This document shows, in pieces, positions 935-12,188 of a stretch of 12,202 nucleotides of DNA. Location of the stretch: positions 1-12,202 of the forward strand of contig JAFCGF010000055.1 in assembly GCA_017608295.1 (NCBI GenBank), written 5' to 3'. The notes beneath the pieces are model-generated. The model had not been told where the DNA came from. It saw nothing but the letters and a program-made list of their open reading frames with translations, and made no database searches. The stretch comes from Candidatus Woesearchaeota archaeon (lineage in GTDB: Archaea; Nanoarchaeota; Nanoarchaeia; Woesearchaeales; JAGVZT01). The position numbers and the translations under genes were made by a program. Each line of letters starts with the position of its first letter. Within the stretch, counting starts at the first letter, position 1.

Positions 935-2275
935 ATGAAAAAGATTCTTTTTGTAAATGCTAGAAGAAAAACATCTGGCCAAAATACCCCGCATTTAGGC
1001 TTTGCAATATTGTCCGCTGTATTAAAAAATGCCAGTCATGATGTTAAAGTTATAGATTATACATTCATGGCCAATTGGCCACCTATTGAAGATATTATAG
1101 AGGAATACGAACCAGATGTTATTGGTCTTTCAGTATACACACCTTCTGTGAACGAAGCAATAGAGATGATTGAGAGAATAGAAAAATACAATCTCCCAAT
1201 AATAGTTGGTGGGCCACATGCGACACTATATACTGATGAATTGCAATCAGATAAGAGAATTGATTATATATTCAAGGGTGAAGCAGAAAGTTCAATAGTT
1301 CAAATTGTAGAAAATGCAATTAAAGAGAAAGAACCCGTCATCATAGAATCTGAATTATCCGACCTAAAACTTCTTCCAACTCCTGATTTTACAGTCTTTA
1401 GCGGTATAGAAAATATCAAAGTATATCCCATTCAAACCAGTAGGGGATGTCCACACAAATGTAGTTTTTGTGCTGTAAAGAAACTAAGTTCAAGGAAATG
1501 GAGGGCAAAGGATCCAGAACTGTGTGTAGATGAATTAATGAAAGCTAAGAATGAATTCCTAAAATTGGAGAAAGTAATCATATATGATGATGATCCATTT
1601 GTTAGAAAAGGGCATATTGAATTATTTTTAAATAAATATGTTGAAAGCGGTGTAGGTCTGGAACTGGATATATTAAATACTCGTGCAGATAGAGTTAGTG
1701 AAGATTTGCTCATTCTGTTAAAGAAAGCCGGTTGTACTACAATAGGCATTGGCTTTGAACATGGACATCCAGAGGTTTTCGAAAATATTGGGAAGCAAGA
1801 AACCATTGAGGAAATCATCAATGCAGCAAACCTAATAAAAAAACATGGATTAAAACTGATTTTATCTTTCATAATTGGATTGCCTGGTGATTCTCCCAAA
1901 AAAGCCAAACATTCTCTGAAAATTGCAAAGAAATTAAAACCAGATTTAGTATTTTGGCACTTACTCGTCCCATACAAAGGAACACAGGTTAGGGAGTGGT
2001 ATGATGAACATGGGCGGGTTTTTGGAGATATTAATGTATCCCCCAATAGAGATAATGATTTTATGTGTGATGACCCCTGTGTGGAAACAGATGATTTTCT
2101 ATTGGAAGAGAGGAAGAAATTTTACCTGAGGGCGATTCTAGAAACAGCTGATAGAAGAATTTCAATAAAAAGACATAATAAAAGATTACTCAGTTATGTC
2201 ATAAAATATAGTCTATATATATCCTACCTTAGGTTTTTATGGACCAGAGTTCAAAACAAAATTAGAAGAGCATAA
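935..2275 (+). CDS. Radical SAM protein with N-terminal B12-binding-type domain
   Basis: A 446-aa protein of the COG1032 type. Residues 1-130 form a Rossmann-like cobalamin-binding-type domain with EPDVIGLSVYTPS, the family signature GGPHATLYTDE (92-102) and FKGEAESS (113-120). The radical SAM core follows, with the [4Fe-4S]-binding CxxxCxxC at C172, C176 and C179 (SRGCPHKCSFCA) and later GFEHGHPEVF and SFIIGLPGDS strands. The classical DxHxxG cobalamin motif is absent, as in many members of this class. The tail after about residue 400 is basic and partly hydrophobic, perhaps for membrane contact. Relatives include C- and P-methyltransferases and lipid- or sugar-modifying enzymes, so the reaction cannot be assigned. 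Its place between glycosyltransferase genes suggests tailoring of the glycan or lipid carrier (inference). It is 43 bp upstream of the GT4 gene, which seems to have its own promoter. Confidence 0.9.
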   Translation: MKKILFVNARRKTSGQNTPHLGFAILSAVLKNASHDVKVIDYTFMANWPPIEDIIEEYEPDVIGLSVYTPSVNEAIEMIERIEKYNLPIIVGGPHATLYTDELQSDKRIDYIFKGEAESSIVQIVENAIKEKEPVIIESELSDLKLLPTPDFTVFSGIENIKVYPIQTSRGCPHKCSFCAVKKLSSRKWRAKDPELCVDELMKAKNEFLKLEKVIIYDDDPFVRKGHIELFLNKYVESGVGLELDILNTRADRVSEDLLILLKKAGCTTIGIGFEHGHPEVFENIGKQETIEEIINAANLIKKHGLKLILSFIIGLPGDSPKKAKHSLKIAKKLKPDLVFWHLLVPYKGTQVREWYDEHGRVFGDINVSPNRDNDFMCDDPCVETDDFLLEERKKFYLRAILETADRRISIKRHNKRLLSYVIKYSLYISYLRFLWTRVQNKIRRA

Positions 2276-2318: not shown

Positions 2319-3695
2319 ATGAAAATTGTCCAAATAGTCCATGATTTCCCACCAAAAAACATTGCGGGTACGGAGATACACACTCTGAACTTATCCAAAG
2401 AATTAAGCGATAAGCATGAGGTATGGGTTTTATGCAGGGAGTTTGGACACTTTAATCAGGAATTCAAAATTACTGACGAAGTTTATGAAGGATTGAACGT
2501 TAGAAGGGTGTTTTATAATGGCGATGAAAATATTCTATCCTCTTTGAAAAACAAGCATATAGAGGATACTTTTGATAATTTACTAAGTGTGGTAAAGCCA
2601 GACATTGTTCATATACAACACCTCTTATGGTTATCTGCTTCAATAATCTCTCTTGCAAAAAAGAGAAATATACCGGTTTTAGTCACACTTCATGACTATT
2701 GGTACATTTGTCCATTGGTAACTCTTATCAATTCCTCTGGAGATATATGTAGTGGCCCAGATTCAGGTGCAAAATGTTTTGGTTGTAGAGATTGTTTTGT
2801 GAATATAATTCCAAAAAGAGGAATAGCTACCAGAGAAAAGGGAACTGGTCTAGATAATATTATGACTAAAGTAAAATGTTTCGTCCCAGTTTTTCTATGG
2901 AGAACATTTCAAACAGGATTGGACAAGGTGACAAAACCATCTAGAAGCGAGCAGCTTGATGAAAAATCTCTTATTCATAGAAAATCATCTGCCATTGAAA
3001 TATTGAATCATGCAGATATGATATTGTCACCATCTGATTTTGTTAAGGATAAGTATATTGAATACGGTCTAATAGATGAAAAAATTATTCTCATGGAGGA
3101 GGGGGTAATTCTCGACTGGCTCAAGGATGTGAACAAGCCAAAATCAAAACCTATCCGATTTGGGTATGTGGGCACGATATACAAGGTCAAAGGTATTCAT
3201 ACGCTGATAGAGGCCTTCAACGGCCTGAAAGATGAAAATGCTGAACTCCTAGTCTATGGTAAGGGCAGCAAAGCTTACCTCGATGAAATAAGAAATATGT
3301 GCTATAATAACAAGGTTAAATTTCTTGGATATTTTGAAGAACTTAGTGAGCCGTTTTCTAATATTGATGTGCTAATCGTTCCATCGGTCTGGTATGAAAC
3401 CTTTTCTGTGGTCATCCGAGAGGCATTCGCAGCAGAAATTCCTGTAATTGCCTCTAATGTAGGGGCTATCCCTGAGATTGTCAATGATGAGGTTAATGGC
3501 CTGTTGTTCAACAAAGGAGATGTGGGCCATCTGACTAAACAGATCAAAAAAATAATTGAAAACCCACAATTGATTGAGGAGTACAGAAGACACATGCCCG
3601 AGATAAAGGATATGCCAAGTTACGTAGGGGATATAGAAGCTATTTACGAGAATTTGATTTCAGTTGAGTTGCTAAACGAGGAGAAAATATGGTAA
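2319..3695 (+). CDS. GT-B glycosyltransferase, family 4, with Cys-rich insert
   Basis: A 458-aa GT4 enzyme. The N-terminal acceptor domain opens MKIVQIVHDFPPKNIAGTEI, with the usual glycine loop (GTEIHT). It contains VTLHDYWYICP (122-132) followed by a cysteine-rich insert with C131, C144, C153, C156 and C159, a pattern seen in a GT4 subset and a possible metal site. The C-terminal donor domain has FGYVGTIYKVKG (281-292) and the diagnostic E-x7-E (E360, E368) in SVWYETFSVVIREAF, then PVIASNVGAIPEIV and NGLLF. The reaction is expected to be a retaining sugar transfer from a nucleotide sugar at the cytoplasmic membrane face. The sugar is unknown. The ATG lacks an SD but has a well-placed TATA box. 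The 3' end overlaps the next gene by 7 bp, indicating one operon. Confidence 0.92.
   Translation: MKIVQIVHDFPPKNIAGTEIHTLNLSKELSDKHEVWVLCREFGHFNQEFKITDEVYEGLNVRRVFYNGDENILSSLKNKHIEDTFDNLLSVVKPDIVHIQHLLWLSASIISLAKKRNIPVLVTLHDYWYICPLVTLINSSGDICSGPDSGAKCFGCRDCFVNIIPKRGIATREKGTGLDNIMTKVKCFVPVFLWRTFQTGLDKVTKPSRSEQLDEKSLIHRKSSAIEILNHADMILSPSDFVKDKYIEYGLIDEKIILMEEGVILDWLKDVNKPKSKPIRFGYVGTIYKVKGIHTLIEAFNGLKDENAELLVYGKGSKAYLDEIRNMCYNNKVKFLGYFEELSEPFSNIDVLIVPSVWYETFSVVIREAFAAEIPVIASNVGAIPEIVNDEVNGLLFNKGDVGHLTKQIKKIIENPQLIEEYRRHMPEIKDMPSYVGDIEAIYENLISVELLNEEKIW
3678..3683 (+). promoter_or_regulatory. Ribosome binding site inside the GT4 3' end
   Basis: GAGGAG ends 5 nt before the ATG at 3689 and lies within the coding end of the GT4 gene. 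It supports translational coupling and fixes the start of the first large paralogue. Confidence 0.65.
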
Positions 3696-5545
3696 AATCC
3701 AAGAAGATACTGGCAATCGCTGAAACAAAAGAACAAGTAAAGGCTATTCTTGTACAAGAAAGCAAGTTAGGAAAATCAACCCAAATTCTTCTATTAATGT
3801 TCGATGACAGCATTAAACTTACTAAAACTCATAGAGGAATTCATTATATCTCATCGACAAAATATCTATCTCCTGAAATATTCCATGATATTGTCCAGAA
3901 TGCCCGTTCTATTGCAATGGAATGGCATAAATCTATATCTGAGGATTGGTCACATAATGGCATAAATCTCGGTTGGATTATCGAAACTCCTTTTTTTAAA
4001 GATGTCGCAGATATCATTCAACGAATCGTAGTTATTCAACAAGTATTGAATGAGTATAAACCAGACAAGATAATTGTTGCTGATGACGGCAGTATGACAC
4101 CTAGAACCGCCATTCTCGTAGCTAATTCAAAAGATATAAAGAGTATTAGAATTAAACTTCCTTTATTTGGTGCTAAAAGAGGAACGCATACTTGCTTTCA
4201 TTTTCTACGAAAAACTGTACGTAACATAGTATTATCTGTCAAATATAAAGCCGATAGCAAGCGATATAAAAAAGACAGGCCAAAAGTTATGCCCATAATA
4301 TTCGAACAGCATCATGAAAACATACTCGGTTCAGTTCTGAAAGAGATAGAAATAAGAGGAAATCTTGAACCTTTTAGTGTTTGCTTTTATCCAGGTGCTA
4401 CTGAGCAGAGTCTACAGAATGACGAGATAGAATACGTTTTATTGAATAGTTTAATGAGTATAGATGTTGCTCTCAAAACCTCACTTGAAATTGTAAAACT
4501 CAAAATGAAGTGGGATGCATTAACTAGAGATACTCACTTTAGAACCTATTTTACATATGATGGGATTGTATTTTGGTCATTAATAGTTGACTTATTCAAT
4601 AATCGCTATGATACTTATTACTCAGATATAATTGGGATTATTGAAATTATTAAAGATGCATTAGCTAAAAAGTCAATTGAATTAGTTATATTGATGGGCG
4701 ATAGCTGTGTTCCAGAGAGGGCAATAATTGGTGCGGCAGATTCAAACAGCATACCTTCTTTGATTGTGCAGCATGGCGTAATGGCAGACACATGGGGATA
4801 TGTCCCATTGCATGGTACAAAAATGGCAGTTTTTGGGGAGTTCAGCAAGAAATTTATGATTGAACATGGTACAGATAGTGATAGAGTAATTGTAACTGGT
4901 AGCCCCATTTATGATGCGTTGATTATGAAAAAGGATTTCTCCCATGAAGATGAGATTTATAAACAATTGGGATTAGACAAATCAAATGAAATAATAGTGC
5001 TTGCAACCCAAGGGCTTGTAGAACATAAATTAGGATCCTTAGGTGATTGGAAAATACTTGTTTCAAATGTGATGGAAGCTATGAAAATGTTCCCAGACAA
5101 ACAACTTGTTATTAAACTCCATCCACATGAAAAAGAAGATAAATATTATAAATTCTTCCCACTTATGAAAAATGTCACTATTATCAAAGATATTGATATC
5201 CATAGTTTATTTAGAGTATCTAAAATTTTATTGACAGAGAGTTCTACAGTTGGTCTTGACTCTATGATCCAAGGCATACCAGTTATTACAATAAATTTTA
5301 CTGGAAGGCCAGATATAATACCCTATGCATCAAGTGGTGCAGCAATTGGTGTTAAAAATCAAGATGAATTGATTGAGGCGATAAAGAAGATTCTCTATGA
5401 TGAAGATACAACAAGAAAATTGCATAGTAATATGAAACAATTTGTGTTTGATTATGCTTATAAAATGGATGGGCACGCATATAAAAGAATTGTGGATTTG
5501 ATAGAAAAAATGGTTGCCAAGTCAAAGAAAGAGAAAGAACCCTGA
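3689..5545 (+). CDS. GT-B-fold putative transferase, paralogue A
   Basis: A 618-aa protein. The C-terminal part resembles the surface-glycan GT-B superfamily (CDP-glycerol transferases, capsule synthesis proteins, polysialyltransferases, UDP-GlcNAc 2-epimerase fold). It has VQHG (360-363), VTGSPIYD (402-409), VIKLHPHEKED (474-484), LLTESSTVGLDSM (514-526) and GIPVITINFTGRPD (529-542). The N-terminal 160 residues look like an extra Rossmann-like unit ending KIIVADDGSMTP (127-138), with weak similarity to residues 331-362, so the chain may be N', N and C domains. DDG and HP motifs together recall GT38/GT52/GT80 sialyltransferases; with the Pse-type genes downstream, a nonulosonic acid transferase is my preferred but unproven guess. 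There is no signal peptide or transmembrane helix, so the protein is probably cytoplasmic. It is followed after 25 bp by a colinear paralogue. Confidence 0.85.
   Translation: MVKSKKILAIAETKEQVKAILVQESKLGKSTQILLLMFDDSIKLTKTHRGIHYISSTKYLSPEIFHDIVQNARSIAMEWHKSISEDWSHNGINLGWIIETPFFKDVADIIQRIVVIQQVLNEYKPDKIIVADDGSMTPRTAILVANSKDIKSIRIKLPLFGAKRGTHTCFHFLRKTVRNIVLSVKYKADSKRYKKDRPKVMPIIFEQHHENILGSVLKEIEIRGNLEPFSVCFYPGATEQSLQNDEIEYVLLNSLMSIDVALKTSLEIVKLKMKWDALTRDTHFRTYFTYDGIVFWSLIVDLFNNRYDTYYSDIIGIIEIIKDALAKKSIELVILMGDSCVPERAIIGAADSNSIPSLIVQHGVMADTWGYVPLHGTKMAVFGEFSKKFMIEHGTDSDRVIVTGSPIYDALIMKKDFSHEDEIYKQLGLDKSNEIIVLATQGLVEHKLGSLGDWKILVSNVMEAMKMFPDKQLVIKLHPHEKEDKYYKFFPLMKNVTIIKDIDIHSLFRVSKILLTESSTVGLDSMIQGIPVITINFTGRPDIIPYASSGAAIGVKNQDELIEAIKKILYDEDTTRKLHSNMKQFVFDYAYKMDGHAYKRIVDLIEKMVAKSKKEKEP
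4750..4796 (+). repeat. 47-bp identical patch shared by the two paralogues (copy 1)
   Basis: Positions 4750-4796 are identical base for base to 6632-6678 and encode IPSLIVQHGVMADTW in both genes. After one mismatch identity continues for 13 more bases. Third codon positions are conserved here although elsewhere the two genes differ strongly, so protein constraint alone does not explain it. Confidence 0.85.
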
Positions 5546-5570: not shown

Positions 5571-7424
5571 ATGAAAACTGTATTAATCATTGCTGACGCA
5601 GAAAGCCAGTTAAAATCCATTCTTGCACAAAAGAATATTTTAGATAGTTCAGATAGGCTCCATCTCCTAACATTTGATGATAGTTTTAGTAAGGCAACTA
5701 AGAATCTTGAGCAAATGCATTCCGTCTCATCAGTTCAAGATTTAACATTGAGACGTTTTCATGAAATCGTACTTAAGGCTCGGTTATTGGCAACAAACTG
5801 GTACAAGTCATTATCAAATAAATGGGAATACAAAGGAATTGATATTGATTGGATTCTGGAGGATGCCTTTTCACAAGATCTTACTGAGATTATGCAACGC
5901 GTAGAAGCTATGACCCTGATAATAGATAGAGAGAAAATCAACAAAATTTATGTTGTTGATGATAACAGCGCGGCTTCTGATGTTGCTATTCTCATAGCCA
6001 CACAAAAGAAAATCCCCATTATCAAAGTAAAAACACCCGTATTCCATATATTTCATATCAAGAAGAAGGTGGCCACACACTTTCGTCTAGTTCGGAAATT
6101 TTTAAAACAAATAAGTTATGCTATAGGCCGCGAAGAAAACAAAAATCAATACAAAGTAAATGAAAGAAACGCAATGATTGTGATATTTGAACCTAACCAA
6201 GTAAAATATCTGAGTCCTCTCATAAAAGAGATGGATCGGATGGATCTCAAACCTTTTGTTGTTTGTTACAATCATGGCCCTATCGAAAAAACTTTGCAGA
6301 ATGAGAATATTGATTACACTCTTTTTTGGGATTTATTAGATGTCCGTACAATAGTCAAAATAACCCAAGAGTCCTCAAGGTTAAGAAAGAGGTGGAAAGT
6401 GATAAGGAGAGAAAGAAGCTTTACAGATGCATTCATTATAAATGAGATAAATTTATGGAATCTCGTTGAAGATTTATTTTTTAAGAAATATTTGAAAACA
6501 TGTGAATATACATTTGAAATTCTGGAAGTAATGACATCCACATTTGCCGAGAAATCGATAGATATTATCATCATGCTAAGAGATATTATCTGGCCAGAGA
6601 GAGTAATAATTGGTGCAGCTGATTTAAACAACATACCTTCTTTGATTGTGCAGCATGGCGTAATGGCAGACACATGGGCATATGTCCCATTGTATGGCAC
6701 AAAAATGGCGGTTTTCGGGGAGGTCAGCAAGGAATTTATGATTCAACATGAGACTGAAAGCAATAGATTGTTTGTCACTGGCAGTATATTCTATGATCAA
6801 TTACTAAATAGAAAGGATTTTCGTTCTAAATCAGATATTTGCAAGTTGCTTAATCTGGATAATGATAAATGTATAATTACGCTAGCTACTCAAGCAGTTG
6901 TGGAACTTAGATTGATGCCCTTGAAAGAATGGATGGCCCACATCTCTATAATTACAGAAGCATTGAACAGATTTTCAGATGTACAACTTGTTATCAAATT
7001 ACATCCAGCGGAAAAAGAGGATAAATACAAGTACATGTTATCTGATATGAAAATTGATGTAAAAATTGTAAAAGATACCGATTTTCACAGTTTACTTAAA
7101 GCATCTGATACCTTGTTGACAGAGAGTTCTACTGTTGGCCTTGATGCGATGATTCTTGGTATACCTGTTATAACAATGAATTTCACGGGACGGCCAGATG
7201 TAATACCCTACGCGTCAAGTGGTGCTGCAATAGGTGTTAAAAATCAAAAAGAATTAACCATTGCAATAAAGAATGCTCTCTATGATGAAGATACAAGAAA
7301 AAGCTTGGAGGTGAAAAGAGATGAATTCCTAGAAGATTACCTCTATAAGCTTGACGGTCTTTCTTCGGAAAGAGTTGTTAACCTGATTATAGAAATGATA
7401 AATGAAAATAAAAACCAAGATTGA
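5571..7424 (+). CDS. GT-B-fold putative transferase, paralogue B
   Basis: A 617-aa protein, nearly gap-free against paralogue A: VQHG falls at 360-363 and VIKLHP at 474-479 in both. Strongest agreement is in IPSLIVQHGVMADTW (355-369) and in TESSTVGLD, GIPVIT-NFTGRPD and IPYASSGAAIGVKNQ near the C-terminus. The N-terminal 200 residues are much more diverged. Differences at likely functional sites are DDN (130-132) instead of DDG, GSIFYD instead of GSPIYD, and KLHPAEKE instead of KLHPHEKE. The first repeat-like unit ends AILIATQKKIPIIKVKTP, which parallels VIIGAADLNNIPSLIVQHG of the second, supporting a duplicated Rossmann unit. It may use a different acceptor or linkage from A, or have lost activity. 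The sequence does not decide this. No signal peptide or membrane helix is seen. It ends 35 bp before the dehydratase. Confidence 0.85.
   Translation: MKTVLIIADAESQLKSILAQKNILDSSDRLHLLTFDDSFSKATKNLEQMHSVSSVQDLTLRRFHEIVLKARLLATNWYKSLSNKWEYKGIDIDWILEDAFSQDLTEIMQRVEAMTLIIDREKINKIYVVDDNSAASDVAILIATQKKIPIIKVKTPVFHIFHIKKKVATHFRLVRKFLKQISYAIGREENKNQYKVNERNAMIVIFEPNQVKYLSPLIKEMDRMDLKPFVVCYNHGPIEKTLQNENIDYTLFWDLLDVRTIVKITQESSRLRKRWKVIRRERSFTDAFIINEINLWNLVEDLFFKKYLKTCEYTFEILEVMTSTFAEKSIDIIIMLRDIIWPERVIIGAADLNNIPSLIVQHGVMADTWAYVPLYGTKMAVFGEVSKEFMIQHETESNRLFVTGSIFYDQLLNRKDFRSKSDICKLLNLDNDKCIITLATQAVVELRLMPLKEWMAHISIITEALNRFSDVQLVIKLHPAEKEDKYKYMLSDMKIDVKIVKDTDFHSLLKASDTLLTESSTVGLDAMILGIPVITMNFTGRPDVIPYASSGAAIGVKNQKELTIAIKNALYDEDTRKSLEVKRDEFLEDYLYKLDGLSSERVVNLIIEMINENKNQD
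6632..6678 (+). repeat. 47-bp identical patch shared by the two paralogues (copy 2)
   Basis: Second copy of the stretch at 4750-4796, in the same reading frame and at the same codon positions of the paralogous gene, 1882 bp downstream. A second, less perfect similar stretch covers the TESSTVGLD to AIGVKNQ coding region (about 5232-5363 versus 7114-7245). Confidence 0.85.
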
Positions 7425-7459: not shown

Positions 7460-8464
7460 ATGAATAAAATATTCACCGATAAGGTTATACTAATAACAGG
7501 TGGCACTGGCACAATCGGTATGGAACTTGCTGAGCAAATTCTAAAATCTGAGCCCAAGGCCGTAAGGATCCTCACAAATGATGAGAACAGTCTTTTTCAT
7601 GCAATGAATAAGTTCAGCGAATCCAATAAATTTAGATATTTTCTGGGCAGTGTTGTTGAAAGGGAGAGACTCAATAGAGCAATGACTGGTGCAGATATAG
7701 TATTCCATGCTGCCGCTCTCAAACATGTCCACATATGCGAATACAACCCCTTTGAGGCTGTGAAAACTAATGTTTATGGCATTCAGAACGTAATTGATAC
7801 AGCCATTGACAATAATGTTGAAAAAGTGATATTCACAAGCAGTGACAAGGCGGTTAACCCTAGCAATGTGATGGGTGTCAGTAAATTAATGGGTGAGAAG
7901 TTGATAACTACCGCTAATTTCTTTAAAGGAAAAAATAAAACAGTATTTTCTACCATACGGCTGGGAAATGTTATAGGATCTAGGGGCTCGGTTGTTCCAC
8001 TTTTTAAAAGTCAGATAAACTCTGGTGGTCCAATCACAATAACGGACAATAACATGTCAAGATACATATTGACTATGGATGAAGCGATTGATAATATCCT
8101 CCGTGTTGCCAATATATCCAAAGGGGGTGAAGTGTTTATATCAAAGATGAGGGCATTGAACATTACCACCCTTGCTCAATCCATGATTGAGGAATTGAGC
8201 AGTGAAGATATCTCGCTCAATGTTATCGGTTTGAAGCCTGGAGAAAAACTATTTGAAGAGTTGATTACAGAAGAAGAGATTAGCAGAACTGTTGAGTTGG
8301 ATGACTTCTATGTTGTCCTGCCACAGTTCACAGAGTTCCAAGATGTTAATTATTCAGCATATGAAAACAACCCCATAGTCAAAGATGTTTTAAGATCAGA
8401 TAAAGCAGATAAGATGTCTAAAGAAGAGATAACCACTCTGCTAGAAGCAGAAAGAATGTTGTGA
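7460..8464 (+). CDS. pseB: PseB/FlaA1-family nucleotide-sugar 4,6-dehydratase, SMK variant
   Basis: A 334-aa soluble short-form member of the FlaA1/PseB/CapD SDR family. It should bind NADP(H) and oxidise then dehydrate UDP-GlcNAc to a 4-keto-6-deoxy sugar, the first step of pseudaminic-type sugar synthesis. Visible features are the cofactor loop GGTGTIG (14-20), HAAALKHVHICEYNP (83-97), SSDKAVNP (127-134) with D129 and K130, and RLGNVIGSRGSVVP (167-180). The position of the PseB catalytic Tyr holds M138 (NVMGVSK, Lys 142). This SMK triad is typical of the long WbpM/PglF type, which retain C5 configuration, whereas PseB has SYK and inverts C5. I chose the ATG at 7460 because MNKIFTDKVILITGGTG matches the usual family N-terminus; a TTG at 7421 would add 13 residues and overlap the preceding stop. 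No SD is visible. Confidence 0.85.
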   Translation: MNKIFTDKVILITGGTGTIGMELAEQILKSEPKAVRILTNDENSLFHAMNKFSESNKFRYFLGSVVERERLNRAMTGADIVFHAAALKHVHICEYNPFEAVKTNVYGIQNVIDTAIDNNVEKVIFTSSDKAVNPSNVMGVSKLMGEKLITTANFFKGKNKTVFSTIRLGNVIGSRGSVVPLFKSQINSGGPITITDNNMSRYILTMDEAIDNILRVANISKGGEVFISKMRALNITTLAQSMIEELSSEDISLNVIGLKPGEKLFEELITEEEISRTVELDDFYVVLPQFTEFQDVNYSAYENNPIVKDVLRSDKADKMSKEEITTLLEAERML

Positions 8465-8468
8465 TGTT

Positions 8469-9410
8469 ATGAATGTGTTAGTAACTGGTGGAGCTGGATT
8501 TATTGGCAGATGGGTAGTAAAAAAATTATTGGAAAAAGGCGAATCTGTAGTTGTTTTAGATGACCTATCTAATGGCGAGTTATCAAATCTGGACGAATTC
8601 ACTGGCTTGGATAATTTTCATGGATTTACAGTGGGGGACATTTTAGACAAGAACCTTCTTTTAAGCATGTTTCAAAATTATGAATTCGATTTATGCATAC
8701 ACTGTGCTGCGCAGATAAACGTTCAGGAAAGCCTTGATAATCCAGAAAAATCTTTCCAGGTCAATGTAATAGGCACATACAATCTATTGGAATGTGCAAG
8801 GAAATTCAGTACTAAAGTTGTTATTATCGGAACATGCATGGTCTATGATCTCGCAGAGGCAACAATTTCTATAAATGAAGAACATTCTTTAAAGCCCGCA
8901 TCACCTTATGCTGGTAGTAAACTTGCAGCAGAGGATCTAGCCTATTCTTATTACAGGGGCTATGGGCTTCCTGTAACCATCTTAAGACCGTTCAATACAT
9001 TTGGACCATATCAGAAATCCGGCATGGAAGGCGGTGTTGTATCCATATTTGTCCAGAAAAAGATTAGTGGAGATATTCTGAATATTTTTGGTGATGGTAA
9101 ACAAACCAGGGATCTTTTGTATGTGGGAGATTGTGCCGAGTTCATAGTCAGAGCCGCATTTTCTGAGAAAGCAAATGGTGAAGTGATTAATGCAGGTACT
9201 GGACACGACATAACAATAAATGACCTGGCAAAGCTTATTGTAAAAGATGAAAGTAGAATAGAACATGTCGAACATCACCATCCACAGAGCGAGATACAGA
9301 AGCTTGTATGCAATTCTTCCAAAGCAAAAAATCTACTATCGTGGGAACCGAAGATATCTCTTGAAGAGGGCATAGGAAAACTCGAGGTATGGTTAAGGAG
9401 TTGTGAGTGA
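8469..9410 (+). CDS. NAD-dependent epimerase/dehydratase (extended SDR)
   Basis: A 313-aa extended SDR. The Rossmann loop is GGAGFIG (7-13) with acidic D31 and D32 ending strand 2, favouring NAD. The catalytic Thr region is IIGTCMVYD (119-127, T122) and the YxxxK pair is Y147/K151 in SPYAGSKLAAED. It continues with LRPFNTFGPYQ, GDGKQTRDLLYVGD and a C-terminal SEIQKLVCNSSKAKNLLSWEP, the usual substrate-binding tail. RmlB-type dehydratases carry Asp-Glu after the catalytic Thr; here the residues are Cys-Met, so an epimerase is likelier than a 4,6-dehydratase. It starts 4 bp after the dehydratase stop, with GTGAT just upstream. The likely role is to set sugar stereochemistry (C4 or C5) between dehydratase and aminotransferase, comparable in layout to the Pen/Pal pair of Bacillus; a UDP-GlcNAc/Glc 4-epimerase is the alternative. 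Confidence 0.85.
   Translation: MNVLVTGGAGFIGRWVVKKLLEKGESVVVLDDLSNGELSNLDEFTGLDNFHGFTVGDILDKNLLLSMFQNYEFDLCIHCAAQINVQESLDNPEKSFQVNVIGTYNLLECARKFSTKVVIIGTCMVYDLAEATISINEEHSLKPASPYAGSKLAAEDLAYSYYRGYGLPVTILRPFNTFGPYQKSGMEGGVVSIFVQKKISGDILNIFGDGKQTRDLLYVGDCAEFIVRAAFSEKANGEVINAGTGHDITINDLAKLIVKDESRIEHVEHHHPQSEIQKLVCNSSKAKNLLSWEPKISLEEGIGKLEVWLRSCE
9395..9400 (+). promoter_or_regulatory. Ribosome binding site choosing ATG 9410 over GTG 9407
   Basis: AAGGAG ends 9 nt before the ATG at 9410, within the end of the epimerase gene. The ATG shares one base with the preceding stop (TGATG), the same junction used at 11643. The upstream in-frame GTG at 9407 would give one extra residue and is less likely. 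Confidence 0.55.
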
Positions 9411-10615
9411 TGGATAAGCTGGCAATAAATGGTGGAAATCCTGTGCGTGATACTTTTCTTCCTTATGGCAAACAGTGGATTGACAAAGATGATATTTCAA
9501 AAGTTGTAAAAGTTTTAGAATCCGACTGGATAACCACTGGTCCAATTCTAAACGAATTTGAAACTAAGTTTGCTGAACTTACTGATTCAAAATATGCAAT
9601 TGCATTAAGCTCCGGAACAGCGGCACTTCATGTCGCTGTTTGTGCATGCAATCTTAAGCCAGGCGATGAAGCAATAACTTCACCATTTACTTTTGCGGCC
9701 ACATCCAATTCTCTTCTATTCCAGGGTTCTCATCCCGTTTTTGCTGATGTGAAGAGGGATACATACAATATTGACCCTGCTGAGATAAAAAAAAGAATAA
9801 CTGCCAACACAAGAGCAATAATGCCAGTTGACTTTGCAGGTCAACCATGTGATATTTTTGAAATAAAGGAAATCGCCAGAGAGAATGATTTGTATGTAAT
9901 AGAGGATGCGGCTCATGCAGTGGGTGCTGATTATAATGGAAAGAAAATAGGCAGCATATCCGATGCCACAATATTTAGTTTTCATCCAGTAAAACAAATG
10001 ACCACTGGTGAGGGCGGAATCATAACAACGAATAATGAGGAGATTGCTGAATCTGCAAGATTGTACAGGAATCATGGCCTTTCTAAAGATGCTGTTGAAA
10101 GATTTGGAAAACATGGTTCATGGTATTATGAAATGACACACCTAGGCTTTAATTATAGGCTCACAGACATACATGCAGCACTGGGCCTTGGTCAACTTGA
10201 AAAATTAATTAAGTTCATAGAACGAAGAACAGAAATCGCCAGCGTATATAATGCTGCATTTGAAGATGTCGAAGAGATAAGAACTCCGACAGTTAAGACA
10301 AACATCAAACATGCCTGGCACCTATATGTGATTGAAATAATACCAGATAAATTAAAAGTGGATAGAGACCAGATATTCAAAGCATTTAGGGCTGAAAACA
10401 TAGGCGTTAATGTGCATTACATCCCTGTCCATCTTCATCCATATTATCATGATAATTTAGGATGCAAAACAGGAGATTACCCTGTTGCAGAGAAGATATT
10501 TGAAAGGGTAATATCACTTCCAATGTTTCCTGGCATGAGCGATGATGACGTGAATGATGTTGTAAATGCCGTTAAGAAGGTTGTTGAACATTACAAAAAT
10601 GGAGAGTCTGAATGA
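9410..10615 (+). CDS. pseC: PseC-like PLP-dependent sugar aminotransferase (DegT/DnrJ/EryC1)
   Basis: A 401-aa fold-type I aminotransferase that should move an amino group from glutamate to C4 of the 4-keto-6-deoxy-HexNAc nucleotide sugar. The N-terminus KLAINGGNPVRDTFLPYGKQ is standard for the family. Then come DWITTGPILNEFE (39-51), SSGTAALHVA (67-76, phosphate binding), SPFTFAATSN (91-100), IEDAAHAVGA (164-173, D166 to the pyridine nitrogen) and SFHPVKQMTTGEGG (190-203) with K195 as the Schiff-base lysine. The SFHPVK-x-TTGEGG form and PYGKQWID-x-DDI start resemble PseC more than LegC. Length is normal for PseC. The stop overlaps the next start as ATGA. Neighbouring PseI- and PseH-like genes support a pseudaminic-type pathway; related 4-aminotransferases (PglE-like, bacillosamine) remain possible. 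Confidence 0.88.
   Translation: MDKLAINGGNPVRDTFLPYGKQWIDKDDISKVVKVLESDWITTGPILNEFETKFAELTDSKYAIALSSGTAALHVAVCACNLKPGDEAITSPFTFAATSNSLLFQGSHPVFADVKRDTYNIDPAEIKKRITANTRAIMPVDFAGQPCDIFEIKEIARENDLYVIEDAAHAVGADYNGKKIGSISDATIFSFHPVKQMTTGEGGIITTNNEEIAESARLYRNHGLSKDAVERFGKHGSWYYEMTHLGFNYRLTDIHAALGLGQLEKLIKFIERRTEIASVYNAAFEDVEEIRTPTVKTNIKHAWHLYVIEIIPDKLKVDRDQIFKAFRAENIGVNVHYIPVHLHPYYHDNLGCKTGDYPVAEKIFERVISLPMFPGMSDDDVNDVVNAVKKVVEHYKNGESE
10601..10606 (+). promoter_or_regulatory. Ribosome binding site of the pseI-like gene
   Basis: GGAGAG ends 5 nt before the ATG at 10612 and sits in the last codons of the aminotransferase gene, consistent with coupled translation across the ATGA overlap. Confidence 0.6.
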
Positions 10616-11643
10616 ATAGGATTAAGATCGGTGACAAATGGATAGGCGAAGATGAGCCCTGCTACTTCATTGTGGAAGCTGGCTCCAATCATAATGGTGA
10701 TTTTGAAATCGCCAAAAAGATGATTGATGTTTCTGTTGAGGCAGGCGCAGACGCTGTAAAACTGCAAATTTTTAAAGCTGAAAAGTTATATTCAAAATAC
10801 ACGCCAGCATTTGATTATCTTAAAGAAAAGAATACCTATGATCTAATCAAAAGTATTGAAACCCCAAGGGAGTGGATTGGCAAACTGGCTGAGTATTGTA
10901 AAGGCAAAAATATTGACTTTCTGGCATCTCCATTTGATTTCCAGGCAGTGGATGATATTGACCCCTATGTGCCAGCCTTTAAAATCGCCTCCTTTGAAAT
11001 AGTTGATTTAGAATTAATAAAATATGCAGCCAGCAGGAAAAAGCCAATGATAATATCCACTGGCATGGCCAATCTGGGAGAAATCGAGGACGCTGTTAAT
11101 GCAGTCCGCTCTCAGGGAAATGATGACATTATTTTGCTGCATTGCAATTCAATGTATCCGACACCACCAGACATTGTAAATCTCAAGGCAATGGACACTA
11201 TGAAGAAGGCAATTCAGGTGCCGGTGGGATTTTCAGACCACACAGAGGGCATTCACATACCTATTTCAGCCGTATCATTAGGCGCATGCATGGTGGAGAA
11301 GCATTTTACTTTAGATCGTAATATGGACGGTCCAGACCATTCTTTTGCAATTGAGCCTGATGAACTAAAGTCATTAATTCAGCAGATACGGCATATTGAA
11401 TCTGCCAGAGGCACTGGCATTAAGGACAAAAGTGAAGCAGAAAGCGGCGAAATGTATGAAAAGGCAAGGCGCAGCATCCACGCCCTTGTGGACATTCCCA
11501 AGGGCACTGAAATAAAAAGGGAGATGTTGACCACAAAAAGGCCTGGCTACGGTATCAAACCAAAATTCATGGATCGCATTGTCGGCAGAACTGCAACCAA
11601 GGACATCAGGGAGGATGAGTGGATTACCTGGGAGATGGTGTGA
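10612..11643 (+). CDS. pseI: Pseudaminic-type nonulosonic acid synthase (NeuB/PseI family)
   Basis: A 343-aa enzyme that condenses phosphoenolpyruvate with a 6-carbon 2,4-diamino sugar (or ManNAc-like) to form a 9-carbon nonulosonic acid. The TIM barrel carries VEAGSNHNG (21-29, E22), DAVKLQIFK (47-55), SPFD (106-109), PAFKIASFEIVDLELIKYAA (121-140), STGMANLGEIE (149-159), GFSDHT (206-211) and MVEKHFTLDR (227-236). H210 and H231 have the spacing of the metal-binding His pair of NeuB. A SAF (antifreeze-like) domain from about 286 ends the chain, with R310 in KRPGYGI. The KIASFEIVDL form matches PseI better than NeuB/LegI, which usually have KI-S-GE. It overlaps the aminotransferase by 4 bp and the acetyltransferase by 1 bp. 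GC content is visibly above that of the upstream transferase genes. Confidence 0.93.
   Translation: MNRIKIGDKWIGEDEPCYFIVEAGSNHNGDFEIAKKMIDVSVEAGADAVKLQIFKAEKLYSKYTPAFDYLKEKNTYDLIKSIETPREWIGKLAEYCKGKNIDFLASPFDFQAVDDIDPYVPAFKIASFEIVDLELIKYAASRKKPMIISTGMANLGEIEDAVNAVRSQGNDDIILLHCNSMYPTPPDIVNLKAMDTMKKAIQVPVGFSDHTEGIHIPISAVSLGACMVEKHFTLDRNMDGPDHSFAIEPDELKSLIQQIRHIESARGTGIKDKSEAESGEMYEKARRSIHALVDIPKGTEIKREMLTTKRPGYGIKPKFMDRIVGRTATKDIREDEWITWEMV
11630..11634 (+). promoter_or_regulatory. Ribosome binding site selecting ATG 11643
   Basis: GGGAG at 11630-11634, followed by GGTG at 11637-11640, sits just before the ATG at 11643 that overlaps the preceding TGA. A longer frame from GTG at 11619 has no such site and would only add residues read from the pseI coding end. 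Confidence 0.55.
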
Positions 11644-12188
11644 TGCTTACTTTTATTCCAATCACAGAAGTTGATGAAATAATTTCCGAGGAGGTTCGAC
11701 AGTGGAGAAACGCCCAGGAAATTCGGAGTCAGATGGTTAATAGTCATGTGATTTCATTGGAGGAGCATACTGGCTGGGTGGCATCCCTTAAAGAAAATAA
11801 AACCACTAGGGTCTGGGTGGCATATCATGACGGCATTCCCTTCGGTGTTGTGAATCTGGCCAAGATTGATTATCAGCAAAAGACAACGGACTGGGGAATC
11901 TACATTGGTGACTTGGACCATCGTGGAAGAGGACTGGCCCGCCCGCTTTTATACAGTTTGATGAACCATGTTTTTGAAGTCCTTGGCCTGAATAAAATGC
12001 AGACCAAGGTGCTTGAGGATAATGAGGCCGCCCAAACACTATACAAAAAAATGGGGTTTGCGGAAGTGCCTGGTTCAGAGGTTATTATCAAAAGAGCAGA
12101 CGACGAAGCATGCTTCATTGAAATGGCCATTGAAAAGAAAGACTGGCTGTCCCTTGAACTGAATCTGAAACCGGAGGCACTGCTATGA
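11643..12188 (+). CDS. pseH: PseH-like GNAT N-acetyltransferase
   Basis: A 181-aa GNAT-fold protein predicted to acetylate the C4 amine of UDP-4-amino-4,6-dideoxy-HexNAc using acetyl-CoA. It shows VRQWRNAQEIRSQM (18-31), the PseH-type substrate region SLEEHTGWVASL (38-49), the beta-bulge strand DWGIYIG (83-89), the pyrophosphate-binding loop HRGRGLA (93-99), LGLNKMQTKVLEDNEAA (114-130) and YKKMGF (134-139). The length and WRN...IR...EEH-x-W order are those of PseH. Start ATG at 11643 overlaps the pseI stop by one base (TGATG). A C-terminal extension after about residue 165 (KKDWLSLELNLKPEALL) has no recognised role. The stop overlaps the next gene as ATGA. LegH- or PglD-type acetyltransferases belong to other families and are less likely. 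Confidence 0.88.
   Translation: MLTFIPITEVDEIISEEVRQWRNAQEIRSQMVNSHVISLEEHTGWVASLKENKTTRVWVAYHDGIPFGVVNLAKIDYQQKTTDWGIYIGDLDHRGRGLARPLLYSLMNHVFEVLGLNKMQTKVLEDNEAAQTLYKKMGFAEVPGSEVIIKRADDEACFIEMAIEKKDWLSLELNLKPEALL
12173..12177 (+). promoter_or_regulatory. Ribosome binding site of the gene leaving the right edge
   Basis: GGAGG ends 7 nt before the ATG at 12185. It is the strongest SD in the window and lies within the pseH-like coding end, supporting a real downstream gene in the same operon. Confidence 0.65.

Follow-up and report, generated by a model that had tools for sequence, protein, structure and literature searches.

The window, by which we mean the whole 12,202-nucleotide stretch of Candidatus Woesearchaeota DNA that was analysed, carries a dehydratase gene and the gene of a second SDR, followed by genes of PseC, NeuB and PseH type and preceded by a glycosyltransferase gene and genes for two similar proteins (Table 1). 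The initial annotation had noted a 4-bp gap between the first two of these genes and a 1-bp overlap of the second SDR gene with the pseC-like gene, and the start and stop coordinates agree with both. The overlap is counted with the ATG at 9410, which has a GGAG about 8 bases upstream; the mechanical ORF starts were TTG 7421 for the dehydratase, GTG 9407 for the pseC-like gene, and GTG 11619 for the PseH-type gene. As both SDRs have Pfam matches—Polysacc_synt_2 for the dehydratase (1.6e-96) and GDP_Man_Dehyd for the second SDR (1.1e-60)—the observation is not due to chance. An Rfam search of the window gave no match, promoter and terminator scans found 13 and 4 sites against 15.1 and 3.4 expected by chance, and no relative was found in the viral contigs searched.

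Table 1. Genes in the window and codons of the residues discussed in the text
Feature	Position	Strand	Basis
Glycosyltransferase	2319-3695	+	
Two similar proteins, 617-618 aa	3689-5545 and 5571-7424	+	
Pen-type UDP-GlcNAc dehydratase, Met variant, 334 aa	7460-8464	+	ATG 7460, stop 8462-8464
Thr126 codon, small residue marking Pal-linked dehydratases	7835-7837	+	alignments
Catalytic [ST]DK, Ser128-Asp129-Lys130 codons	7841-7849	+	alignments
Met138 codon (Tyr in B. thuringiensis Pen and PseB)	7871-7873	+	alignments
Lys142 codon, MxxxK motif	7883-7885	+	alignments
Pal-type SDR, 313 aa	8469-9410	+	ATG 8469, stop 9408-9410
Pal signature Thr122-Cys123-Met124	8832-8840	+	alignments
Pal Tyr147 codon; Lys151 codon	8907-8909; 8919-8921	+	alignments
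PseC-type 4-aminotransferase	9410-10615	+	NCBIfam TIGR03588 PseC 474 bits, cut-off 423.5
NeuB-family nonulosonic acid synthase, outside PseI clade	10612-11643	+	Pfam NeuB + SAF
PseH-type N-acetyltransferase	11643-12188	+	NCBIfam TIGR03585 PseH 114.7 bits, cut-off 93.1

By its sequence, the second SDR is a Pal of the same family as Pal from Bacillus thuringiensis, and a predicted 5-epimerase. Among PDB entries, 6BWL, which was deposited as 'Pal' from this species, matches it best (393 bits, E 7.6e-117, 56% identity). The second SDR is nearer to Pal than to GalE or RmlB, it has the Thr-Cys-Met signature together with YxxxK, and a Pen partner is encoded directly upstream. Thr122, Cys123, Met124, Tyr147, and Lys151 are invariant across 22 aligned rows. 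Cys123 and Met124 occur in 23/23 and 22/23 of the Pals that are linked to a Met-type dehydratase (the window counted), in 21/22 and 22/22 of those linked to a Tyr-type dehydratase, and in 20/20 and 17/20 of those without a typed Pen, while Tyr147 and Lys151 are present in every Pal of all three groups; neither Cys123 nor Met124 was found in any of 14 outgroup SDRs. The initial annotation had suggested a check of whether the order dehydratase–epimerase–pseC recurs, and it is indeed repeated in other genomes. Among 21 archaeal Pal loci (the window excluded), a dehydratase gene lies on the same strand at most about 120 bases upstream in 13, pseC follows within about 160 bases in 14, and both neighbours are this close in nine; the corresponding numbers for 52 bacterial Pal loci are 16, 33, and 12. 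A Pen is encoded somewhere in the examined stretch at 18 of the archaeal and 34 of the bacterial loci, which leaves 21 of the 73 loci without a Pen in that stretch.

The dehydratase can be assigned to the Pen family, as a variant. Its best PDB match by sequence is 6BWC (283.6 bits), titled 'X-ray structure of Pen from Bacillus thuringiensis', and a fold search with its AlphaFold2 model (mean pLDDT 89.1) returned 6BWC chains at ranks 1-6, followed by FlaA1/PseB, WbjB, CapE, and PglF. The motif of the window dehydratase is TSSDKAVNPSNVMGVSK, with Met138 at the position of the PseB tyrosine, so that the alignments bear out the earlier remark that the Tyr of PseB is missing. To our knowledge, the B. 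thuringiensis enzyme, which has the Tyr, is the only characterised Pen, and since Met138 replaces this residue, the chemistry may differ. The 6BWC sequence has Asn-Ala where the window dehydratase has Asp-Lys, but 6BWC is a variant at exactly these two residues, wild-type Pen having Asp128 and Lys129 (excerpt of PMC8987622), and we therefore dropped the view that B. thuringiensis Pen is without Asp-Lys. As wild-type Pen has Asp-Lys, the exchange of Tyr for Met is the sole difference in those motifs. Pen is tabulated as [ST]DK...Yx3K in the same excerpt; the window dehydratase has the SDK and the final Lys with Met in place of Tyr, and we therefore class it within the Pen family as a variant with Met rather than as a strict Pen. 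The initial annotation had linked the Tyr to the inverting enzyme. As a premise for a lack of C5 inversion, its absence is weak: CapE has an MxxxK active site and is nevertheless described as a dehydratase with C5-epimerase activity (excerpt of PMC3699295), and a missing Tyr can therefore not be equated with missing inversion.

Profiles and trees set the dehydratase apart from the better-known families. It scores 313.1 bits with the PseB profile (TIGR03589, cut-off 407.75) and 260.4 bits with the FnlA/CapE profile (TIGR04130), whose cut-off of 730 is narrow, as 0 of 81 genomes passed it. A tree of 91 rows contains a clade of 59 (support 92/93) that holds the window dehydratase, B. thuringiensis Pen, and 43 of the 44 rows that have a Pal at the same locus (the window counted), with PseB, FnlA/WbjB, and PglF outside; the exception is the Pal-linked dehydratase of locus L043, which sits on a long branch outside the clade. 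A quick tree of 100 rows, built after the removal of 12 near-duplicates and of L043 and L042 with their long branches, again gave a clade with B. thuringiensis Pen (64 rows, SH-aLRT 90) apart from PseB, FnlA, and PglF. In this tree, the Met-type trio L148-L150 is the sister of a 61-row clade holding all Pal-linked rows, and the Pal-linked Tyr-type rows group into a single clade (SH-aLRT 95) that is embedded in Met-type rows; this Tyr clade consists of Bacillota and includes B. thuringiensis Pen. The FnlA-like L215 and L236, a repeat of L149, were left out of this tree and of the residue counts. In a careful tree, 56 Pal-linked or near rows form one clade with a support of only 71/87, and the Met/Tyr state needs three changes; outgroups were used to infer the root, and not all supports are high. 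A dehydratase that we take to be SpsM-like (L223), from neighbour genes that are known from Bacillus subtilis, had been considered a member of the Pen clade and fell outside it in the 100-row tree, and two Met-type rows first regarded as being without Pal (L154 and L160) turned out to have one about 7 kb away in their genomes. Within the order of Bacillus, a true Pal is present in 11 of 81 genomes, and each of these 11 encodes a dehydratase that falls within the Pal-linked clade of the 100-row tree.

From the sub-cut-off PseB and FnlA/CapE scores and the separate clades, we reject membership of the window dehydratase in PseB, FnlA/CapE, or PglF, and on phylogenetic grounds we assign it to the Pal-linked Pens. 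With PseB it shares the Polysacc_synt_2 fold, [ST]DK, xxxK, and a pseC gene that is often next. The idea of the initial annotation that the first step is divided between two SDR proteins, like the Bacillus pair, holds up, but its suggestion of an archaeal version built from different SDR subfamilies fails, as the second SDR is a Pal and the dehydratase groups with Pen by sequence, predicted fold, and trees. Pen/Pal is a known two-protein first step, and the pair in the window is therefore no new mix of SDR subfamilies. The B. thuringiensis genes are likewise stated to be adjacent (excerpt of PMC5109656), and the two systems agree in the two SDR families and in a Thr before [ST]DK; they differ in Met138 versus Tyr and in the synthase, which in the window lies outside the Bacillus PseI clade.

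This Thr was found to mark the Pal-linked dehydratases. At position 126, directly before the catalytic Ser-[Ser/Thr]-Asp-Lys, 51 of 54 Pal-linked rows have Thr, two have Ala, and one has Ser. The 51 rows of other families all have Ile, Leu, or Val and never a small residue; PseB (with Tyr at 138) and CapE/WbjB/FnlA have Leu in 12/12 rows each, PglF-like and SpsM-like rows have Ile or Val, and the dehydratases L148-L150, which are encoded in legionaminic-type (Leg) operons, have Ile in 3/3. Eight database proteins of genomes unchecked for Pal, all of them Thr-Met, are excluded from these 54 and 51 rows. A second sample covered 92 genomes with 103 dehydratases. At least one dehydratase with a small residue 126 was present in 17 of its 18 Pal genomes—in the exception, G481, the contig ends about 300 bases away from the Pal gene—and in 5 of the 74 genomes without a found Pal, four of these five belonging to an odd group with Gly for the catalytic Asp. 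Most Pal genomes of this sample had already been part of the first set, and its new ones are G527, G498, G632, and G481, three of which have the small residue; G633 is the genome of locus L050 and is not counted as new. Given that the rows share ancestry and that the mark came out of the first set itself, it characterises the clade and does not prove a mechanism. As genomic marks, Pal and the small residue ahead of the catalytic motif could separate pseudaminic-type from legionaminic-type pathways, two types that are said, for a Methanoperedens enrichment, not to be separable by mass alone (excerpt of PMC11337218).

Sequence homology, the order of the genes, the conserved residues, and the trees together indicate that the first step is probably of the Pen/Pal kind, with a Met-type first enzyme. 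The feature is real and is explained in kind by Pen/Pal, of which it represents an apparently uncharacterised variant. B. thuringiensis Pen and Pal were reportedly described by Li et al. in 2015 and Delvaux et al. in 2018, and the product of this Pen is a 5,6-ene. In the corresponding scheme for the window, the Pen-type enzyme would oxidise C4 and remove water across C5-C6, Pal would finish the redox step and invert C5, PseC would aminate C4, and PseH would acetylate the amine, whereupon a hydrolase encoded outside the window, the NeuB-family synthase, and a cytidylyltransferase would complete the sugar. The role of the missing Tyr as a base might be taken over by Thr/Ser and Asp, as it has been proposed for the Met-type PglF that Thr and Asp take the C4-OH proton (excerpts of PMC7439481, PMC8987622, and PMC5109656).

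A variant of this Pen/Pal reading, whose probability overlaps with that of the reading itself, is possible, although we would not count on it: the Met-type dehydratase could be an ordinary 4,6-dehydratase that releases UDP-4-keto-6-deoxy-D-GlcNAc, Pal would then be mainly a stand-alone C5 epimerase, and the exo-glycal route of B. thuringiensis would be a derived trait of Bacillota. The Met-type sister trio L148-L150 points in this direction. All three operons encode a NeuC over the cut-off of 235.9 (428.6, 467.5, and 419.5), the LegC family is the best model for their aminotransferases, just below the cut-off of 420 (378.4, 411.3, and 385.2), a NeuD-type acetyltransferase exceeds the cut-off of 160.8 in both operons scanned (218.8 and 196.4), and the one NeuB-family synthase scanned reaches 444.4 (cut-off 399.65). 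For the cytidylyltransferases, a NeuA label was dropped, as PseF scores best in 3/3 with 158-172, below the cut-off of 205.7. At 1e-100, a true Pal was found in none of the three genomes, with one 189-bit match in G595. Since these operons are legionaminic-type, the D-gluco ketone should come from the dehydratase unaided. Tyr is confined to one derived clade in the 100-row tree, and PglF and SpsM are Met-type 4,6-dehydratases (excerpts of PMC8987622 and PMC7439481), with which the window dehydratase shares MxxxK and the predicted UDP-GlcNAc 4,6-dehydratase chemistry; these retaining enzymes, to which WbpM also belongs, need no Pal partner, and the trees place PglF-like and SpsM-like rows on branches of their own. 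Legionaminic acid in a B. subtilis spsM mutant was restored by pglF or pen-pal, and not or only partly by B. thuringiensis pen alone (excerpt of PMC7439481), which suggests that a Tyr-type Pen needs Pal for the ketone. Against a plain ketone product stand the redox residues, which are the same in Met-linked and Tyr-linked Pals, and Thr126, which is common to Met-type Pens and B. thuringiensis Pen and not found in the Leg-operon dehydratases, suggesting a chemistry shared with B. thuringiensis Pen. The shared Thr126 and the unchanged Pal residues would thus favour B. thuringiensis-like chemistry, and a plain 4-ketone would be favoured by the sister trio from the Leg operons and by the Met-type enzymes known to be 4,6-dehydratases. 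The split into Met and Tyr within one family offers a clean test of the role of the Tyr in 5,6-ene release.

As for the end product, the upstream enzymes suggest that pseudaminic acid is likely, but it is not certain, because the synthase does not belong to the PseI clade. With 370.9 bits for NeuB_NnaB and 326.7 bits for PseI (TIGR03586, cut-off 340.25), it stays below each cut-off, and its best PDB match is 1VLI, SpsE, an enzyme assigned to the legionaminic pathway (excerpt of PMC7439481). In a 53-row tree, for which 50 of 54 synthases were used and four were too short or too long, 30 rows including 8H2C form the PseI clade (100/100). The window synthase, a NeuB-family synthase like PseI and SpsE, lies outside this clade and apart from SpsE, which sits with haloarchaeal synthases. 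It pairs instead with the synthase of an ANME-1 Pen/Pal locus (68% identical, 100/99), and a less firm grouping (87/80) joins these two with synthases of Promethearchaeota and Epulonipiscium. The ANME-1 synthase also misses the PseI and NeuB cut-offs (332.3 and 391.4), and at a Bacillus Pen/Pal locus the synthase is clearly a PseI (495.9). The archaeal picture is not uniform: the PseI clade includes the synthases encoded at L001 (Altiarchaeales), L203, and L210, and the PseH-like protein of the ANME-1 locus scores 65, below the cut-off of 93.1. A nonulosonic acid other than pseudaminic acid, made by the non-PseI synthase, would fit the position of the window and ANME-1 synthases, but we consider it rather unlikely: Pal, PseC, and PseH indicate an L-altro diamino sugar, the usual substrate of PseI, and a synthase from another clade may share the specificity of PseI. 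A more far-reaching combination, which is speculative and which we think improbable, would be that the Met-type Pen is older and makes the D-gluco 4-ketone, that Pal is a detachable C5-epimerase module, and that, with the non-PseI synthase of the window and of its archaeal relatives, the pathway leads to a nonulosonic acid isomer by a route seemingly undescribed. If this were true, Pal added to a legionaminic-type start would switch the pathway to L-altro sugars.

The remaining alternatives leave the first step undivided. The dehydratase alone might invert C5 in the manner of CapE, WbjB, or PseB, with the Pal-like gene serving another sugar, and the MxxxK of CapE provides a precedent. We regard this as very unlikely, as the window dehydratase groups with the Pal-linked Pens and not with PseB or FnlA/WbjB, which combine both steps in one protein, and the placement of Pal between dehydratase and pseC is recurrent. 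That the second SDR is a UDP-Glc/UDP-GlcNAc 4-epimerase is hardly credible: it shares the extended SDR superfamily and reaches 164.8 bits with the GalE model (cut-off 262.3), but a UDP-glucose 4-epimerase is only its next PDB match with 177.5 bits, far behind Pal, and it carries the signature whose Cys and Met the outgroup SDRs lack, so that we ruled out a GalE-type epimerase.

What looks new to us is the Met variant itself, its prevalence at the archaeal loci seen, the residue mark, and the pairing with a non-PseI synthase. Where a Pen is in reach, it is Met-type at 18 of 18 archaeal loci; at bacterial loci, 26 are Tyr-type and eight Met-type. ANME-1, haloarchaeal, Methanosarcinaceae, and Lokiarchaeota genomes also encode the pair, its first enzyme being Met-type. 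Published Pen/Pal occurrences, in the excerpts of the papers, are from Bacillus and Geobacillus, and a literature search by title and abstract opening, covering few subscription journals, returned no archaeal Pen/Pal and no Met-type Pen among the matches listed. In a scan of a genome collection for Pal, the best 80 of 585 loci comprised 51 Pals proper (43-67% identical) and 29 other SDRs (33-38%); the archaea among these 51 are Altiarchaeales, Lokiarchaeota, ANME-1, archaeon BMS3Abin16, Halorubrum halophilum, Methanosarcinaceae, and Methanolobus. The nearest database Pen and Pal proteins include archaeal ones and one pair (P0123, P0005) labelled 'Candidatus Peribacteraceae bacterium'; the contigs of this pair agree in length (21,867 bases), as do those of P0122 and P0004 (5,555 bases). 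A true Pal is present in 10 of 344 genomes in the phylum of the ANME-1 genome and in 5 of 195 in that of the Lokiarchaeota genome; with up to 6 and 11 candidates scored per genome, the true Pals in these phyla reach at least 461 bits and the next candidates at most 257.

In two loci that carry genes for the UDP-GlcNAc dehydratase Pen and its partner SDR Pal, the place of the 4-aminotransferase PseC after Pen-Pal is taken by an RmlD-like reductase together with a divergent NeuB-family synthase, and the product of these loci may be a nonulosonic acid in which a hydroxyl replaces the second amine. The reductases scored 132.3 bits (L204) and 126.5 bits (L205) against the rmlD model, both below its cut-off of 224.05. 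The Oceanirhabdus sp. locus L047 has two neighbouring nonulosonic acid gene sets, the first with Pen-, Pal-, PseC- and PseI-like genes and the second with NeuC-, NeuB- and LegC-like genes; the labels follow from resemblance to proteins of L192 and L195. At the Heliobacterium mobile locus (L040, 9001-10086), Pal appears as two ORFs in the assembly used.

Judged from sequence, the operons L192-L194 represent a legionaminic-type pathway; a true Pal was sought in their three genomes, and none was found. No Pal was found in G011, G050, G041 and G021, whose archaeal Tyr-type dehydratases (L326, L327, L329 and L330, respectively; Tyr at the place of Met138 in the window's dehydratase) have the motif STGKA, in which the catalytic Asp is replaced by Gly. 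The Met-type dehydratase L296 carries the small residue that marks Pal-linked dehydratases (TSTDK), and no Pal was found in its genome, G434, which may be incomplete.

Loci and window genes
Feature	Location	Genome	Remark
Pen-Pal, RmlD-like reductase, divergent NeuB-family synthase	L204:7906-11870	G206	
Pen-Pal, RmlD-like reductase, divergent NeuB-family synthase	L205:8299-12304	G324	
Operon: Met-type dehydratase, cytidylyltransferase, NeuB, NeuC, NeuD-type acetyltransferase, LegC-family aminotransferase	L192-L194	G625, G595, G585	
B12-binding radical SAM protein	window 935-2275		5' of glycan genes
Tandem paralogues	window 3689-5545 and 5571-7424		617-618 aa

The tandem paralogues of the window are 46% identical to each other, and the C-terminal half of both is WecB/glycerophosphotransferase-like. 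A search with this protein type gave 10 matches, both paralogues among them, in the 7998 candidates scored from 5.8 billion proteins.
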